Source: an uncultured Gammaproteobacteria bacterium
GTDB taxonomy: Bacteria; Pseudomonadota; Gammaproteobacteria; PS1; Pseudothioglobaceae
Reading direction: 5' to 3'
Assembly: GCA_937899995.1 (NCBI GenBank)
Contig: CALCCK010000015.1
Location: forward strand, 1-42,763
DNA: 42,763 bases
Made by a program: the position numbers and the translations under genes. Below the pieces are notes generated by a model. It was not told where the DNA came from and did no database searches. It saw nothing but the letters and a program-made list of their open reading frames with translations. Shown here piece by piece: positions 17,382 to 26,820 of the stretch; position 1 is the stretch's first letter; the number at the start of each line of letters is the position of its first letter.

Positions 17382-17384
17382 GGG

Positions 17385-17497
17385 TTTTCTTTTTTAAATT
17401 TCTCAACTATAATAAACTTTAATTATTTTGCAACGGCGCAAGATATTGAATAAGCATAGTTGCTATACAAGTTGCTCACGTGGGCGTTTTATTTTTA
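17385..17497 (+). promoter_or_regulatory. glnB leader with candidate ANTAR dual-hexaloop RNA
   Basis: TATAAT at 17408-17413 gives a start near 17420. Hairpin P1 (17425-17444) pairs ATTTTGC with GCAAGAT around loop AACGGC, with A at loop position 1 and G at 4. Hairpin P2 (17450-17466) has loop ATAGTT (again A1, G4) on AGC/GCT, extended by two pairs past a bulged A. A five-pair stem TGCTC/GGGCG-type hairpin at 17473-17486 followed by TTTTATTTTT could terminate. The two A1/G4 hexaloops fit the target of ANTAR antiterminators. The terminator is weak and does not overlap P2, so this unit is less certain than those upstream of the sensor gene and glnK. Confidence 0.5.
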
Positions 17498-17529
17498 AGT
17501 TAATGAAAACTTAATCAAAGGAGAGAAAT

Positions 17530-17868
17530 ATGAAGTTTTTAACAGCAATTATTCGACCACATCAATTAGATGATGTGAGGGAAGCTTTATCAGAAGCCGG
17601 TGTAACCGGTATTACTGTCACCGAAGTCAAAGGCTTTGGTCGTCAAAAAGGCCACACAGAAATGTATCGTGGGTCAGAGTATCAAGTTGATTTTTTACCT
17701 AAAGTCAAACTAGAGATCGCAATTTCAGCATCGAAGCTCGATGGTGTGATTGAGGTGATTACCAATGTTGCCAGTTCTGGCAAAGTAGGTGATGGCAAAA
17801 TTTTTGTCACTAATCTAGAAAAAGTTGTTCGTATTCGCACTGGTGAAACCGATCAAGACGCACTTTAA
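17530..17868 (+). CDS. glnB: PII signal protein, first copy
   Basis: PII proteins report 2-oxoglutarate, ATP/ADP and (by uridylylation) glutamine status and bind Amt channels, GlnE, NtrB and others. The 112-residue protein has the T-loop [17 protein letters not shown] with the modifiable Tyr51, the first PII signature around it, and the nucleotide-binding C-terminal signature [24 protein letters not shown] strong ribosome site (AAAGGAGAG) precedes the ATG. It is followed by amtB after 10 nt with AAGGAG between, the classic glnK-amtB arrangement, so its main job is probably to gate that channel. The symbol glnB or glnK is a matter of convention; the context favours GlnK function. A structured leader precedes it. 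Confidence 0.95.
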   Translation: MKFLTAIIRPHQLDDVREALSEAGVTGITVTEVKGFGRQKGHTEMYRGSEYQVDFLPKVKLEIAISASKLDGVIEVITNVASSGKVGDGKIFVTNLEKVVRIRTGETDQDAL

Positions 17869-17878
17869 GGAGTAAAAA

Positions 17879-19165
17879 ATGAAAAAATTATTATTAACAT
17901 TATTAACATTATTGGCTTTAATGCCAATGAGCGTGTTCGCCGAAGGTTTAGATGGTGCTAATACTTCGTGGATTCTAACGTCAACTGCGTTAGTGTTGTT
18001 TATGACCTTGCCAGGTCTGGCTTTATTTTATGGTGGTTTAGTTCGCACTAAGAATATCTTATCAATATTGATGCAATGTTTTGCGATTGCTGGTATTGTG
18101 TCAATTCTTTGGTTAGTGGCCGGCTATTCAATCGCCTTCGCTGAGGGTAATGCGTATTTTGGTGATTTATCAAAATTTATGCTAGCAGGCGTTACAGAGG
18201 ACTCTTTAAGTGGCGATATTCCTGAGAGTTTGTTTGCGCTTTTCCAGATGACTTTCGCGATTATCACACCAGCATTGATTATTGGTGGTTTTGCTGAGAG
18301 AATGAAGTTTTCAGCGGTATTGTTATTCAGTGCGATTTGGTTGATTGTAGTATATGCACCAATTACTCACTGGGTATGGGGTGGAGGTTGGTTAGGCGAA
18401 ATGGGCCTTCTTGACTTTGCTGGTGGTACTGTTGTTCATATTACTGCAGGTGTTGCCGCTTTGGTAGCAGCGATTGTAGTAGGTCCTCGCAATGGCTTTC
18501 CATCAAAACCAATGCCTCCACATAATATGACAATGACCATTACCGGTGCAGCAATGCTATGGGTAGGTTGGTTTGGCTTTAACGGTGGCTCTGCACTAGC
18601 AGCAAATGGCGATGCAGCAATGGCAATGTTGGTTACGCATATTTCTGCCGCAGCAGGTGCGATGACTTGGATGTTCTACGAGTGGATTAAGTATGGAAAA
18701 CCAACAGCTCTAGGCGCGGTTACTGGTATGGTTGCTGGTTTAGGTACGATTACACCAGCTTCTGGTTTTGTCGGTCCTGCAGGTGGTTTGGTAATTGGTA
18801 TTGTTGCAGGTATTGTTTGTTTTAACGCAGTAATATTGATTAAGCAAAAATGGAAAATTGACGATTCATTAGATGTATTTCCAGTACATGGTGTGGGCGG
18901 TGCTATTGGCACACTCATGGCAGCAGTTTTTGCATCAAGCGAATTGGGTATTTTCTCCGGACAAGGATTAGCAGAAGGTATGACTATTATGTCGCAACTA
19001 GAAGTTCAAGCGATTGGCGTTGTCGCAACTGTTGTTTATACAGCTGTAGCAACCTATATTATTCTTAAAGTAGTTGATATGATTACTGGTTTAAGAGTAA
19101 GTGCAGAGGAAGAGCAGCAAGGTTTAGATCTAATTTTACATGATGAAAAAGGTTACGATTTGTAA
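17879..19165 (+). CDS. amtB: Ammonium transporter, first copy
   Basis: This 428-residue Amt/Rh channel has a cleavable signal peptide (residues 1-21, ending VFAEG) and 11 membrane segments. The pore histidines are H187 (GGTVVHITAG) and H337 (FPVHGVGG). Other landmarks are LFYGGLVRTKN, QMTFAIITPALIIGGFAERMKF, WVGWFGFNGGSA and the cytosolic tail RVSAEEEQQGLDLILHDEKGYDL (last part GLDLILHDEKGYDL), where PII docks. It is of the E. coli AmtB type and forms an operon with the PII gene upstream. An intrinsic terminator follows. It differs clearly from the second Amt at 24933, so the two pairs are not a recent duplication. Confidence 0.97.
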   Translation: MKKLLLTLLTLLALMPMSVFAEGLDGANTSWILTSTALVLFMTLPGLALFYGGLVRTKNILSILMQCFAIAGIVSILWLVAGYSIAFAEGNAYFGDLSKFMLAGVTEDSLSGDIPESLFALFQMTFAIITPALIIGGFAERMKFSAVLLFSAIWLIVVYAPITHWVWGGGWLGEMGLLDFAGGTVVHITAGVAALVAAIVVGPRNGFPSKPMPPHNMTMTITGAAMLWVGWFGFNGGSALAANGDAAMAMLVTHISAAAGAMTWMFYEWIKYGKPTALGAVTGMVAGLGTITPASGFVGPAGGLVIGIVAGIVCFNAVILIKQKWKIDDSLDVFPVHGVGGAIGTLMAAVFASSELGIFSGQGLAEGMTIMSQLEVQAIGVVATVVYTAVATYIILKVVDMITGLRVSAEEEQQGLDLILHDEKGYDL

Positions 19166-21329: not shown

Positions 21330-23246
21330 ATGGCATTATCCTCATCAATTATTAATCAAATCATCCAACAAGAAGTTTTGTTGGATGATTTATCAGATGA
21401 CGATTTAGCAAGTTTTTGTCAAACTGCCAATCTGACTTATCGAACAGGCAAACCAATTGTAAGTGATCAGGATTATGATTTCATTTATCTGCCTGCATTA
21501 AAACAAAGACTTCCACACCATCCTTTATTACAATCTATTGAGCCAGAAGGGCAAGGTTTTTCTGAAGAAAAAGTATTGCTACCAGAAATAATGCTTTCCA
21601 CCGATAAAGCCTATTCTTGGGAAGAAATCAGTAAATGGATAGAGCGATTAGAAAAATCTGCTGTTGAAATCGATCTAGAACTGTCCTTAATCCAAATAAA
21701 AGCCACACCTAAATTAGATGGTTTTGCCGGCTTTGATGATGGCACTCGTCTTTACACGCGTGGAGATGGCAAAAAAGGCAGTGATATTACCCGTGTATTT
21801 GATCGAGGTCTGCATGTCTATAATGATTCTGAGCGTGGCCAGGGTGCAGGCGAGATTATGGTTAAAAAAAGTTATTTTGAGGTATTTTTATCACAAGATT
21901 ATGAATATCCACGCAATTTTCAAGCCAGTTTAATTAAAGAAAAAGCACTGGATATAAAAGCACAACAGGCCATTTTGGATAAGGCAGCACTCTTTGTACC
22001 TTTTACACAGCTGCCTACTTGGTTAGGCGGTATTAATGAATTAAGCAATCAGTTTGAGCGAATTGTAGAGAATGTGTTATCCACCGTTGACTTTGATGTA
22101 GATGGCGTGGTACTTGAAGTGACTAATGACGACTTAAAAATACAGATGGGGGCCAATCGTAAATTTCATCGTTGGCAAATTGCCTTTAAAGAGAATAAAG
22201 ACAAGGCGCAAGTAAAGGTGTTATCAGTCACACCTCAAGTGGGACGAACCGGCAAGATCACTCCAGTAGTAGAATTAGAGCCGACGTTACTTAGTGGTGC
22301 GACAATAGTGCGAGCAACAGGGCATCATTATGGATTGGTCAAAGAACAAGGATTAGGTTCGGGTAGTGTGATTGAGCTCATACGTTCAGGATTAGTGATT
22401 CCGAAAATCAATCAAGTTTTAAAGTCAGCACCCGTTGATATTCCGGAAATATGCCCAAGTTGTGGTGAAAAATTACAATGGAAATCTGATTTCTTAATGT
22501 GTCCTAATCATTCTATCTGTCCTGCGCAGGTGATTGGGAAAATGGAGTATTTTTTCAAAATATTAGCCAATAATAATGGCTTTGGTATTGCCACCATTGA
22601 AAAGCTTTATGAGCATGGTATACGTAAAGTTTCACAAATTTATGCACTGAGTATTGATGATTTAAACATTATGGATTTTGGTGAAAAAACTTGTACTAAC
22701 CTAGTAAATCAACTCAAGCGCTCGACCAGTGAACAAATTGAAGATTGGCGTTTTTTAGCTGCTTTTGGTGTAGCGAGAATGGGCACGGGAAATTGTGAAA
22801 ATTTACTTAAGTCTTACCCAATAAATACTATTTTTGAATTAAATTTAGAGCAGGTATCAACTATTGATGGTTTCGCAACATTAACGGCACAAATGATTGT
22901 TACTGGTCTTGATTCTATCCAATCAGAATTTGAATTATTGAGTCAATATCACTTTAATTTAGAATTAACACCTTTGCAAAAATATTTGGCAAAATTTACC
23001 CATAGTCTTAGTGGTAAAAAAATCATTTTCACAGGTAAGATGAGCGGCTCTAGAGAGGAAATGAAAAAACATGCTAAGTCAATTGGCATACAAGTGGTTA
23101 GTAGTGTTAGTGCCAAAACTGATTATCTAGTCATTGGTGAAAAGGTTGGGCAAAAAAAGATCGAAAGTGCTGAAAAATTTGGTGTTGAAATATTGACTGA
23201 AACCGATTATCTTGCACTGATTAAATTACAAATAACAAAAAAATAG
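21330..23246 (+). CDS. ligA: NAD+-dependent DNA ligase, divergent LigA type
   Basis: The 638-residue protein has the full LigA layout in order: Ia-like N-terminus (VSDQDYD, with Asp, Tyr and Asp conserved), adenylation domain with nucleophile K128 in TPKLDG, TRGDGKKGSDIT, GEIM, motif IV FDVDGVVLEV, OB fold VTPQVGRTGKITPVVELEP, a Cys4 zinc site from residue about 374 (CPSC ... CPNHSIC), helix-hairpin-helix repeats and a C-terminal BRCT domain (SGKKIIFTGKMS...). It departs from the family in places: the FANPRNAAAGSLRQ block is reduced to YPRNFQASLIKEK, and the YH pair that helps hold NMN reads YR. It is likely active, but a second, canonical ligA elsewhere cannot be excluded. It follows bamC by 8 nt. 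Confidence 0.85.
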   Translation: MALSSSIINQIIQQEVLLDDLSDDDLASFCQTANLTYRTGKPIVSDQDYDFIYLPALKQRLPHHPLLQSIEPEGQGFSEEKVLLPEIMLSTDKAYSWEEISKWIERLEKSAVEIDLELSLIQIKATPKLDGFAGFDDGTRLYTRGDGKKGSDITRVFDRGLHVYNDSERGQGAGEIMVKKSYFEVFLSQDYEYPRNFQASLIKEKALDIKAQQAILDKAALFVPFTQLPTWLGGINELSNQFERIVENVLSTVDFDVDGVVLEVTNDDLKIQMGANRKFHRWQIAFKENKDKAQVKVLSVTPQVGRTGKITPVVELEPTLLSGATIVRATGHHYGLVKEQGLGSGSVIELIRSGLVIPKINQVLKSAPVDIPEICPSCGEKLQWKSDFLMCPNHSICPAQVIGKMEYFFKILANNNGFGIATIEKLYEHGIRKVSQIYALSIDDLNIMDFGEKTCTNLVNQLKRSTSEQIEDWRFLAAFGVARMGTGNCENLLKSYPINTIFELNLEQVSTIDGFATLTAQMIVTGLDSIQSEFELLSQYHFNLELTPLQKYLAKFTHSLSGKKIIFTGKMSGSREEMKKHAKSIGIQVVSSVSAKTDYLVIGEKVGQKKIESAEKFGVEILTETDYLALIKLQITKK

Positions 23247-23346
23247 TTTACAATGAATCAAAAAACAACCTGAAGTTGGGTGGTTTTTGGCATAGAAGCC
23301 TAATAACAAATTCATTTTTAAAAATGGTTTGTTATTAGGCTTTTTT
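23226..23346 (+). promoter_or_regulatory. Promoter and ANTAR-type attenuator of the sensor gene
   Basis: TTACAA (23226-23231), 17 bp and TACAAT (23249-23254) make a promoter in the end of ligA, with a start near 23261. P1 (23261-23288) is a long hairpin, AAAAAC then AACCT... pairing with GGGT.GTTTTT with one mismatch, and a six-base loop GAAGTT (G at 1 and 4). P2 (23289-23300) is GGC/GCC around loop ATAGAA (A1, G4). The terminator is 13 perfect pairs, GCCTAATAACAAA (23298-23310) with TTTGTTATTAGGC (23328-23340), then T6. P2 and the terminator both need 23298-23300, so they exclude each other, as in ANTAR antitermination leaders. Confidence 0.7.
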
Positions 23347-23383: not shown

Positions 23384-24319
23384 GTGCAAATTTCAGCATT
23401 AATTAACAAGCAAAAAGAATTTTTGAGTTATGAATTAGAAGGTGGCTTTAGGCAGTTATCACAGCAGTGTGCACATACGATGGTTAGCGCAAGAAGTTTT
23501 AATGATCTTGATGATTTACTACATTCTCATATGAAAAAATGTAAATACGCAAACTTAACTTACGTGCTTGATTGTTCTGGTGTACAGCTTAGTTCTAATG
23601 TTGATAGAACTCAAATATTAACTGATTTCCAAGGGCAGGATTTATCAGCCAGGCCATTTTTTAATAAAGTTGATGTTGAGCATCCATTTTATTTATCAGA
23701 TGCTTATATATCAGGCGTAACCCTTAAGCCATGTATTAGTGCGGTACATGCTATTTGTTACGATGATGTATTGATTGGTATGTTGGTATTTGATCTAGAA
23801 TTACAAAAATTACCGCTATTAGAGCCAAAAATTGGAAGCAACGATTTTCGTCAGATTAAGGGTGATCCTGAAATTCGATCGAATTTATTTAATCAAAATC
23901 GAGTACAGTCTGCGATGGATCAGTCGATTGATACAGTACATAATATTTCAGCTGAATTGTTGTGTGAATTAGGTGTATTCCATATTAAGCTTCACTACGC
24001 TTCATCTAGAGCAACTATTTGGACGTATGACGATCCATACAATTATAAACTTCACGTATTAGATGAAATTATTAGTCCTAATATTTGCCTTTTATATCCA
24101 AAAAAGTCGTATCCATCAACAGCTAAAGTGTCTCATGAGCAAATTAGGAAAGTGCTAGATCATTTTAAAAAAATGCGTTTTATGGACGAAAATTTGTATT
24201 TAAAAACAGGTAGCTTGAATATTATGAATGGTATAGTCGGCCTCAGTTTCTCTTGTGATGGTAGCCACTATTTATCAGTAGAAGAATTTTTAGCTAATTT
24301 TGATAAAATCTATGCTTAG
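23384..24319 (+). CDS. Soluble PDC/Cache-like sensor protein
   Basis: The 311-residue protein has no signal peptide or membrane segment. Residues about 15-145 look like a Cache (PDC) ligand-binding fold: YVLDCSGVQLSSN, GQDLSARPFF (84-93), YLSDAYIS (103-110) and the closing strand IGMLVFDLELQKL (131-143). Cache domains are usually extracellular, so a cytosolic one is unusual. The C-terminal half (about 150-311) is unrecognised, with two Cys-containing blocks; there is no kinase, GGDEF, methyl-acceptor or DNA-binding domain. Start is a GTG with AAGAGG eight bases upstream. It sits between ligA and glnK-amtB, and its leader carries the same ANTAR-type attenuator as glnK, so I infer that it belongs to the same circuit, perhaps as the ligand sensor that controls the ANTAR protein. 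Confidence 0.75.
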   Translation: MQISALINKQKEFLSYELEGGFRQLSQQCAHTMVSARSFNDLDDLLHSHMKKCKYANLTYVLDCSGVQLSSNVDRTQILTDFQGQDLSARPFFNKVDVEHPFYLSDAYISGVTLKPCISAVHAICYDDVLIGMLVFDLELQKLPLLEPKIGSNDFRQIKGDPEIRSNLFNQNRVQSAMDQSIDTVHNISAELLCELGVFHIKLHYASSRATIWTYDDPYNYKLHVLDEIISPNICLLYPKKSYPSTAKVSHEQIRKVLDHFKKMRFMDENLYLKTGSLNIMNGIVGLSFSCDGSHYLSVEEFLANFDKIYA

Positions 24320-24381: not shown

Positions 24382-24465
24382 TTTCCTAAAGATGGGAAAA
24401 GAACACAGAACATTGACGTTTATTTAAGCTTTTGTAATAAGAAGCTGAAGTAAACGTTTTTTTTT
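24382..24465 (+). promoter_or_regulatory. ANTAR-type attenuator, unit 1 of the glnK leader
   Basis: P1 (24382-24399) is TTTCCT / GGGAAA around loop AAAGAT (A1, G4). P2 (24408-24421) is GAAC / GTTT around loop ATTGAC (A1, G4). The terminator pairs 24416-24431 with 24442-24457 (15 of 16 positions), has a 10-nt loop and ends in nine T (24457-24465). P2's 3' arm is the start of the terminator's 5' arm, so the two folds exclude each other. This is the arrangement bound by ANTAR proteins, which stabilise P1-P2 and let transcription pass. Confidence 0.82.
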
Positions 24466-24468
24466 GCT

Positions 24469-24925
<457 letters not shown>

Positions 24926-24932
24926 GGAGCAA

Positions 24933-26153
24933 ATGATGGAAAATACAATTTTAGAAATACAATTTGCAATTGACACCTTTTATTTCCTAATGATGGGTGC
25001 ATTGGTTATGTGGATGGCAGCGGGATTCTCGATGTTAGAAGCAGGTATGGTTCGTAGTAAAAATACGGCTGAAATCTTAACAAAAAATATTGGCCTATAT
25101 GCGATTGCTTGTACAACCTATATGGTTTACGGTTATGACGTAATGTATGGCGGTGGTGTCATGTTAGATGGCATTGAAGTGATTGCAAAAGATGCTACTT
25201 ATGCAGCACCTTCTGACTTCTTCTTCCAGGTAGTATTCGTAGCAACAGCGATGTCAATCGTTTCTGGTGCAGTAGCTGAGCGTATGAAGTTATTTACTTT
25301 CTTTGCTTTTGCGATTGTTTTCACGGGTGTTATTTACCCAATGGAAGGCGCATGGACATGGAATGGTGCATCAGTATTTGGCATGTATACCCTAGGTGAC
25401 TTAGGTTTTGCTGACTTTGCTGGTTCAGGTATTGTACATATGGCTGGTGCAGCAGCAGCTTTATCTGGTGTAATAGTTTTAGGTGCTCGTAGGGGTAAAT
25501 ACAACAAAGACGGTTCATCAAACGCAATTCCAGGTGCAAATATGCCATTAGCAACACTAGGAACCTTCATCCTATGGTTGGGTTGGTTTGGTTTTAATGG
25601 TGGCTCAGTATTAGCAATGGCAAGTAAAGAAAGTGCCAACGCAGTAGCGATGGTATTTTTGAATACTAATGCAGCAGCAGCTGGTGGTGTAATCGCGGCA
25701 TTAATCTTGGTTAAACTACTATGGGGCAAGGCAGACTTAACAATGGCACTAAATGGTGCATTAGCAGGTCTAGTTGCAATTACTGCAGGCCCAGATACGC
25801 CAACGGCTTTAGAGGCAACTCTAATTGGTGCTGTTGGTGGTGTATTAGTAGTATTCTCAATCGATATCTTAGACAAAGTATTTAAGATTGATGATCCAGT
25901 AGGTGCAATCTCAGTACACGGTGTTGTCGGTTTGTGGGGCTTGTTAGCAGTGCCATTAACAAACTCAGGTGTATCTTTCAGTGGTCAGTTAGCTGGTGCA
26001 GGTACAATCTTTGTTTGGGTATTTGGTACTTCAATGGTGTTATGGTTAGTTCTAAAAGCAATCATGGGTATCCGAGTTACTGCAGAGGAAGAAGACGAAG
26101 GTGTGGATATTACAGAATGTGGTTTAGAAGCATATCCTGAATTTACAAAATAA
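24933..26153 (+). CDS. amtB: Ammonium transporter, second copy
   Basis: The 406-residue Amt/Rh channel has pore histidines H169 (GIVHMAG) and H329 (SVHGVVG), MLEAGMVRSKNTAEILTKN near the start, WLGWFGFNGGSV, and a C-terminal cytosolic tail (GIRVTAEEEDEGVDITECG, with EEEDEGVD typical of the PII-responsive end). It has no cleavable signal peptide, unlike the first Amt, and belongs to a different Amt clade (MLEAGMVRSKN.. type, common in marine bacteria). Two ATGs occur at 24933 and 24936; AAGGAG at 24924-24929 favours the second. It is co-transcribed with glnK and ends at an intrinsic terminator. Confidence 0.96.
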   Translation: MMENTILEIQFAIDTFYFLMMGALVMWMAAGFSMLEAGMVRSKNTAEILTKNIGLYAIACTTYMVYGYDVMYGGGVMLDGIEVIAKDATYAAPSDFFFQVVFVATAMSIVSGAVAERMKLFTFFAFAIVFTGVIYPMEGAWTWNGASVFGMYTLGDLGFADFAGSGIVHMAGAAAALSGVIVLGARRGKYNKDGSSNAIPGANMPLATLGTFILWLGWFGFNGGSVLAMASKESANAVAMVFLNTNAAAAGGVIAALILVKLLWGKADLTMALNGALAGLVAITAGPDTPTALEATLIGAVGGVLVVFSIDILDKVFKIDDPVGAISVHGVVGLWGLLAVPLTNSGVSFSGQLAGAGTIFVWVFGTSMVLWLVLKAIMGIRVTAEEEDEGVDITECGLEAYPEFTK

Positions 26154-26235: not shown

Positions 26236-26820
26236 ATGAATACAGCATTAAAAATTATCCTAGTGGATAAAAATACCGGCCGCTCAGCTATGTTACGTCG
26301 CGCTTTACAAGACAAAGGTCACGAAGTGATTTGTCGTATGAGTAACAGCTCACAACTACAAGACAGTAACGAAATGACGCACGCAGACGTAGTGATTTTG
26401 AATGCTGATATTCCTGATGAAGAGGTATTTGCGAATCTAACTGATATCAATAAGACAAAGCCTAAACCAATCGTAATGTTTACTGAGGAGTCTAACTCTG
26501 AAATGGCAAATTCTGCGATTAAATCAGGCGTTAATGCGTATATCGTAGATGGCCTTGAAGAAAACAGAGTGCAGCCCATTATCGATGTGGCGATGGCACG
26601 TTTTCGTGAGTTCCAAGCGCTTAAAGATGAACTGGATGCAACGCGCAATCAGCTCTCAGAGCGTAAAGCAGTAGAGAAAGCAAAAGGTTTGTTAATGAAG
26701 CATAAAAATGTTAGCGAAGATGATGCTTACCAATCATTAAGAAAGATGGCAATGGATAAGAATAAGCGTATTTTCGATGTGGCTGAAAGTGTGATTAATG
26801 CGTTCGAACTATTAGAGTAA
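26236..26820 (+). CDS. ANTAR-domain RNA-binding antiterminator, NasT-like
   Basis: The 194-residue protein has a receiver-like N-terminus (about 5-125) and a C-terminal ANTAR domain (about 134-190: SERKAVEKAKGLLMKHK, SEDDAYQSLRKMAMDKN, VAESVI), which binds paired hexaloop hairpins in nascent RNA and blocks termination. Order and length are those of NasT. In the receiver the acidic pair reads DK (11-12) and the phosphoacceptor position is Asn56 (VVILNADIPD), while NasT-type proteins usually have Asp there; phosphorylation control is therefore unlikely and a protein partner, as with NasS-NasT, more likely. No nasS is in the window; the soluble Cache protein at 23384 is a candidate substitute. 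Four candidate RNA targets lie within 9 kb upstream. It ends 4 nt before the convergent tatC. Confidence 0.93.
   Translation: MNTALKIILVDKNTGRSAMLRRALQDKGHEVICRMSNSSQLQDSNEMTHADVVILNADIPDEEVFANLTDINKTKPKPIVMFTEESNSEMANSAIKSGVNAYIVDGLEENRVQPIIDVAMARFREFQALKDELDATRNQLSERKAVEKAKGLLMKHKNVSEDDAYQSLRKMAMDKNKRIFDVAESVINAFELLE

Follow-up and report, generated by a model that had tools for sequence, protein, structure and literature searches.

Antitermination by ANTAR regulators is known from several systems with dedicated sensors; those of AmiC–AmiR, EutW–EutV and NasR include a binding protein, a histidine kinase and a fused NIT domain. To our knowledge, no Cache protein serves as the sensor in any of these. 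A closely comparable case is the NasS–NasT system of Paracoccus denitrificans, in which the receiver of the ANTAR regulator is controlled by protein contact (PMC3795266). The RNA targets of ANTAR proteins were described by Ramesh et al. in 2012 as dual hexaloop hairpins, the second of which (P2) overlaps a terminator, and P-II and ammonium-transporter genes are already among the reported targets (PMC3369931). Here we describe a locus at which a soluble Cache protein is encoded beside a glnK–amtB–ANTAR gene group, and consider whether it may act as a sensor for the ANTAR protein.

The locus lies in a window (the whole stretch of DNA that was analysed, 42.8 kb) from the 1.24-Mb draft genome of a marine sulfur oxidiser in a SUP05/Thioglobus-like family. 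The gene of interest occupies 23384–24319 of the forward strand, starts with GTG and encodes a soluble product of 311 aa, which we refer to as Cache-CTD after its Cache domain and its C-terminal domain (CTD). The open reading frame is real, with full-length homologues in family genomes at 60–88% identity, and at least 579 relatives occur elsewhere. It is preceded by ligA (21330–23246) and followed by glnK, encoding a P-II protein of 115 aa (24578–24925), amtB (24933–26153) and a gene for an ANTAR regulator with a pseudo-receiver, in which the acceptor Asp is replaced by Asn (26236–26820), all on the forward strand. The window also holds a second glnK–amtB operon (17382–19165), the leader of which is without ANTAR modules. 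Rfam matches in the window were confined to tRNAs, and PADLOC returned no match.

The Cache domain comprises residues 1–147 (23384–23824, forward strand), among which R90 and D137 are conserved. Pfam Cache matches of the window protein itself are weak; its relatives match dCache_1 at 2e-6 to 1e-5, and a profile built from 75 sequences finds KinD (7e-6), PctA (1e-4) and Tlp3 (2e-4) in the PDB. The AlphaFold model (pLDDT 90.1, pTM 0.85) contains the Cache fold on which the first-pass annotation had staked its reading, long N-terminal helix included, and structure comparison of residues ~1–147 recovers YkuI, WalK, KinD and dCache receptors at Z 12–16, the closest fold being the intracellular Cache domain of Bacillus subtilis YkuI (Z 15.7, 2.6 Å, 132 residues). 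The same annotation had described the protein as lacking a signal peptide or membrane helix, and hydropathy bears this out: the maximum over 19 residues is 1.67, inside the Cache core, whereas AmtB reaches 2.2 and a genuine membrane-bound Cache protein 2.5, and the N-terminus stands at -0.04, so that the membrane-bound, extracytoplasmic location typical of the Cache superfamily does not apply here. The motif by which dCache_1 domains sense amino acids is Tyr/Arg/Trp/Tyr/Asp. As the version of this motif found in PctA is only half kept in the window protein, being reduced to the Arg and Asp at R90 and D137, the earlier suggestion of an amino-acid ligand is unsupported and we do not claim one. 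A cytosolic Cache domain is not without precedent, since two Cache families, YkuI_C and Diacid_rec, have been reported to be mostly intracellular (PMC4822843).

The remainder of the protein, residues 148–311 (23825–24316, forward strand), forms the CTD, an undescribed domain with the motifs KGDPxxR...LFxQ, SSRATxW and FSCDGxHY. It had been called uncharacterised, and rightly so: the domain is conserved, and no sequence relative was found in Pfam, NCBIfam or the PDB. A separate model of the CTD (pLDDT 87.6) yielded nothing below E 0.01 in Foldseek, and its best Z was 5.0, so that no fold match convinces; a new fold is not thereby established. The CTD is homologous to a stand-alone protein of 213 aa from the same genome (hhalign probability 99), the gene for which (L047:4595–5233, contig C17) is kept in much of the family and lies between genes that we take, from their neighbours, to be truB and purD.

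The Cache-CTD gene had been proposed to have the same type of leader as glnK, and this is borne out: among the family loci scanned, a P2 of the pattern GG[CT]A[TC]AGA[AG]GC[CT] followed by a terminator occurs only in the leaders of these two genes. The Cache-CTD leader (forward strand) is a single ANTAR-type module in the order P1–P2–terminator. P1 lies at 23262–23287 with the hexaloop GAAGUU at 23272–23277, P2 (GGC-AUAGAA-GCC, with A1 and G4) at 23289–23300 and the terminator stem (GCCUAAUAACAAA...UUUGUUAUUAGGC plus U6) at 23298–23346, the 3' arm of P2 being the start of that stem, so that P2 overlaps the intrinsic terminator. Across six Cache-CTD leader sequences, A1 and G4 of the P2 loop and G4 of the P1 loop are present in all six and A1 of the P1 loop in five; the first P1 position is G in the window copy and A in the five relatives, which corrects the A read there earlier. 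The hairpin pairs are kept in 86% of cells, as against 27–59% when slid, and the terminator pairs in 97%. The leader is limited to genus g1 and G015.

The glnK leader carries two tandem modules on the forward strand, each with two A..G.. hexaloop hairpins, the second overlapping a terminator: module 1 at 24382–24454 (P1 UUUCCU-AAAGAU-GGGAAA, P2 AAC-AUUGAC-GUU) and module 2 at 24468–24549 (P1 UCUC-AAAGAU-GGGG, P2 GGU-AUAGAG-GCC). A mechanical scan of the 42.8-kb window for P1, P2 and terminator returned these two modules and nothing else, and shuffled sequences returned none. A covariance model (R1) built from the glnK modules gave the Cache-CTD leader 15.5 bits, less than the 21.7 bits of a spurious match in another part of the genome; being weak on the leader of the Cache-CTD gene and matching a coding region on C54/C38 without a terminator, it was set aside as proof of the leader. 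In several family genera P1–P2–terminator ANTAR leaders are also found before a nirB–MFS operon for nitrite/nitrate (L198, L199, L201, L202, L204, L207, L208, L210, L212), and we infer from these additional leaders that the ANTAR protein probably governs nitrogen assimilation.

Within the family the regulator and the candidate sensor are distributed very differently, the ANTAR gene being near-universal (47 of 49 good genomes) and full-length Cache-CTD present in about 16 of 83 genomes; these and the class-wide figures below come from draft genomes, and kinship is handled only in the tree permutation. Genomes without Cache-CTD have a contiguous ligA–glnK–amtB–(CBS)–ANTAR order and retain the glnK and nirB leaders, and their ANTAR receivers are 80–94% identical to that of the window, compared with 90–96% in carriers. 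The phospho-acceptor Asp is absent from the receiver in all 29 family members examined, and a search for a NasS-type NMT1_2 protein found none in the window's genome and weak matches only in the family; an input other than phosphotransfer, from a protein or a ligand, is therefore needed. Several genera have a CBS-domain-like protein of 147 aa between amtB and the ANTAR gene (L036:9712–10155 and others), of which the window's genus has a decayed copy or none. In G010 (L172, L203) the ANTAR gene follows ligA without glnK–amtB, and a glnK–amtB with an ANTAR leader lies elsewhere in the genome. The Cache-CTD gene is frameshifted or split at L044:7249–8185 and L050:6308–7235, one of these copies lying near an apparent hydrogenase cluster, which suggests ongoing loss.

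Across the class, the Cache-CTD gene is widely found in genomes without an ANTAR gene, which the first-pass annotation had named as grounds for refuting the partnership: for the protein family as a whole, 38 of 66 carrier genomes have none, the remaining 28 comparing with 63 of 210 among other genomes. We did not use this whole-family co-occurrence as evidence (odds ratio 1.7, p 0.07, uncorrected for kinship). Most copies across the class are orphans without conserved neighbours. For the subfamily to which the window's protein belongs, ANTAR is present in 11 of 17 genomes against the same 63 of 210 without the protein (p 0.006, but only p 0.10 against other Cache-CTD carriers), a partly post hoc result. 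In the protein tree, the window's clade (SH-aLRT 100 with 38-row and 85 with 29-row sampling) holds every other copy that was found beside ANTAR, glnK–amtB or nrtABC (L071, L117, L066, L318, L068 and L094). Seven independent members with such a context in one 24-tip clade out of 116 tips were obtained in 2 of 20000 permutations, with the qualification that some of the nitrogen-gene seeds were taken from members of the clade, which may slightly favour detection there; the permutation replaces a Fisher test for nitrogen context, which is circular in this setting. In L071 the ANTAR gene is immediately upstream of Cache-CTD, with glnA close by. In Cocleimonas flava (L068:2272–12210) the gene sits between nrtABC and amtB–glnK–ntrBC, and this member, like L066, has a nitrogen context though its genome is without ANTAR.

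The strongest independent evidence for a partnership with ANTAR comes from a Thiobacillus-like clade, in which all five ANTAR genes, from four genomes, overlap a gene of the Cache-CTD family as ATGA, the stop codon of the ANTAR gene overlapping the ATG of the next. Three of these partners are Cache-CTD proteins and two, of 159 aa, consist of the CTD only. In G837 and G804 the pair is followed, in the same orientation, by an nrtA (NMT1_2) gene with a canonical ANTAR leader (P1 GGCTGC-A[CA]TGGC-G..GCC, P2 GAC-AACGGC-GTC, terminator). In gene order, this is the NasT–NasS layout with Cache-CTD, or the bare CTD, in the place of NasS. A phylum-wide ANTAR search added nothing on pairing. In another gammaproteobacterial family (G056, L046:4907–6672), a dCache protein, membrane-bound through helices at its C-terminus, is encoded upstream of ANTAR and an nrtABC-like operon, which appears to be another Cache–ANTAR pairing; our literature search found no paper on such pairings.

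Taken to be a NasS-like partner of the ANTAR protein by the first-pass annotation, Cache-CTD keeps that role in part: the subfamily clustering and the overlaps in the Thiobacillus-like clade favour an association, whereas the many ANTAR-less carriers count against it. A partnership of the NasS type is not obligate in the window's family, where most genomes lacking the Cache gene keep an ANTAR protein with a little-changed pseudo-receiver. The reading we prefer, to which we give nearly an even chance, is that the protein serves the ANTAR nitrogen regulon as an auxiliary sensor in the cytosol and would contact the ANTAR protein through its CTD. Active ANTAR protein would bind the P1/P2 hairpins of nascent leaders, and P2 would block the terminator stem, leading to transcription of glnK–amtB and, in the window's genus, of the Cache-CTD gene itself, which is probably regulated by ANTAR. 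On sensing a small molecule in the cytosol through its Cache domain, the protein would most likely act through the CTD on the ANTAR pseudo-receiver, as NasS does on NasT, to tune or shut off antitermination, making Cache-CTD an auxiliary sensor with feedback. Since genes for the CTD without a Cache domain also remain linked to ANTAR, we infer that the CTD may be the point of contact and the Cache domain an optional input.

The main competing explanation, which is quite possible if on balance doubtful, holds that the protein belongs to the regulon without being the partner of ANTAR: a nitrogen-responsive cytosolic sensor with a different target, be it GlnK, AmtB, an enzyme or a transporter, the input to ANTAR coming from a factor that all family members have, for which GlnK is the simplest candidate. 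Such an arrangement would account for the conservation of ANTAR without the Cache gene, for a glnK gene adjoining ANTAR in nearly all family genomes, and for Cache-CTD adjoining glnK–amtB or nrtABC in genomes without ANTAR (L066, L068, L318); it leaves unexplained why, in the Thiobacillus-like clade, ANTAR genes overlap the following Cache-CTD or CTD-only gene as ATGA, and a GlnK-driven ANTAR fits poorly with G010, where no glnK–amtB lies beside ANTAR, though the glnK elsewhere keeps its leader. We consider it unlikely that the gene is a passenger of the ligA operon, a widespread orphan with an unrelated role that lies between ligA and glnK by chance. Its ANTAR-type leader in g1 and G015 and the significant clustering of nitrogen and ANTAR contexts in the window's subfamily speak against this, even if the orphan state of most family members and the ANTAR-less majority of carriers would fit it, as would the start of the gene 7–38 nt after ligA in several of the family's genera (in g4 and g10 it begins a few to about 40 nt after ligA, without the leader).

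Were Cache-CTD indeed an auxiliary ANTAR sensor, it would represent a new type of input for RNA-binding ANTAR regulators, would give a first role to an unnamed domain encoded by hundreds of genomes of beta- and gammaproteobacteria, and would help to explain how ammonium and nitrate uptake are tuned in the abundant SUP05 bacteria; the ANTAR gene that overlaps a CTD-only gene by four bases would offer a concrete pair for a direct contact test. More broadly, and tentatively, at somewhat less than an even chance, the CTD could be a hitherto unrecognised module for contact with ANTAR proteins. Cytosolic proteins of the Cache-CTD type could add a further class to the known sensors for ANTAR antitermination (binding proteins such as NasS and AmiC, histidine kinases, fused domains), serving nitrogen signals in sulfur-oxidising proteobacteria, with CTD-only partners sensing by themselves or without a Cache domain.

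Compared with known systems, the locus resembles NasS–NasT in that the candidate partner is the cytosolic counterpart of a sensor type usually found outside the cytoplasm, and in that the pair precedes nrtABC with an ANTAR leader in two genomes of the Thiobacillus-like clade. NasS is an NrtA/NMT1_2-type binding protein, whereas here a Cache fold is joined to the CTD; the putative sensor gene adjoins ANTAR in the Thiobacillus-like clade and is optional in the window's family. With AmiC–AmiR, EutW–EutV and NasR the candidate would share ANTAR antitermination under a dedicated sensor (PMC3369931). The leaders in the window share the P2–terminator overlap of the described ANTAR targets and resemble them in their dual hexaloop hairpins, save for the G at the first P1 loop position of the Cache-CTD leader, but the module is doubled before glnK and extended to the Cache-CTD gene (PMC3369931). 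Homology to the dCache_1 receptors PctA and Tlp3 and to KinD is detectable in sequence over the membrane-distal module, with Arg and Asp conserved in both, although the window protein is without membrane helices and does not keep Tyr121 and Trp128 of the PctA motif. YkuI of B. subtilis, the closest fold, shares a soluble, intracellular Cache domain and differs in domain order, its EAL domain standing ahead of the Cache domain, whereas in the window protein the Cache domain comes first and is followed by the undescribed CTD.
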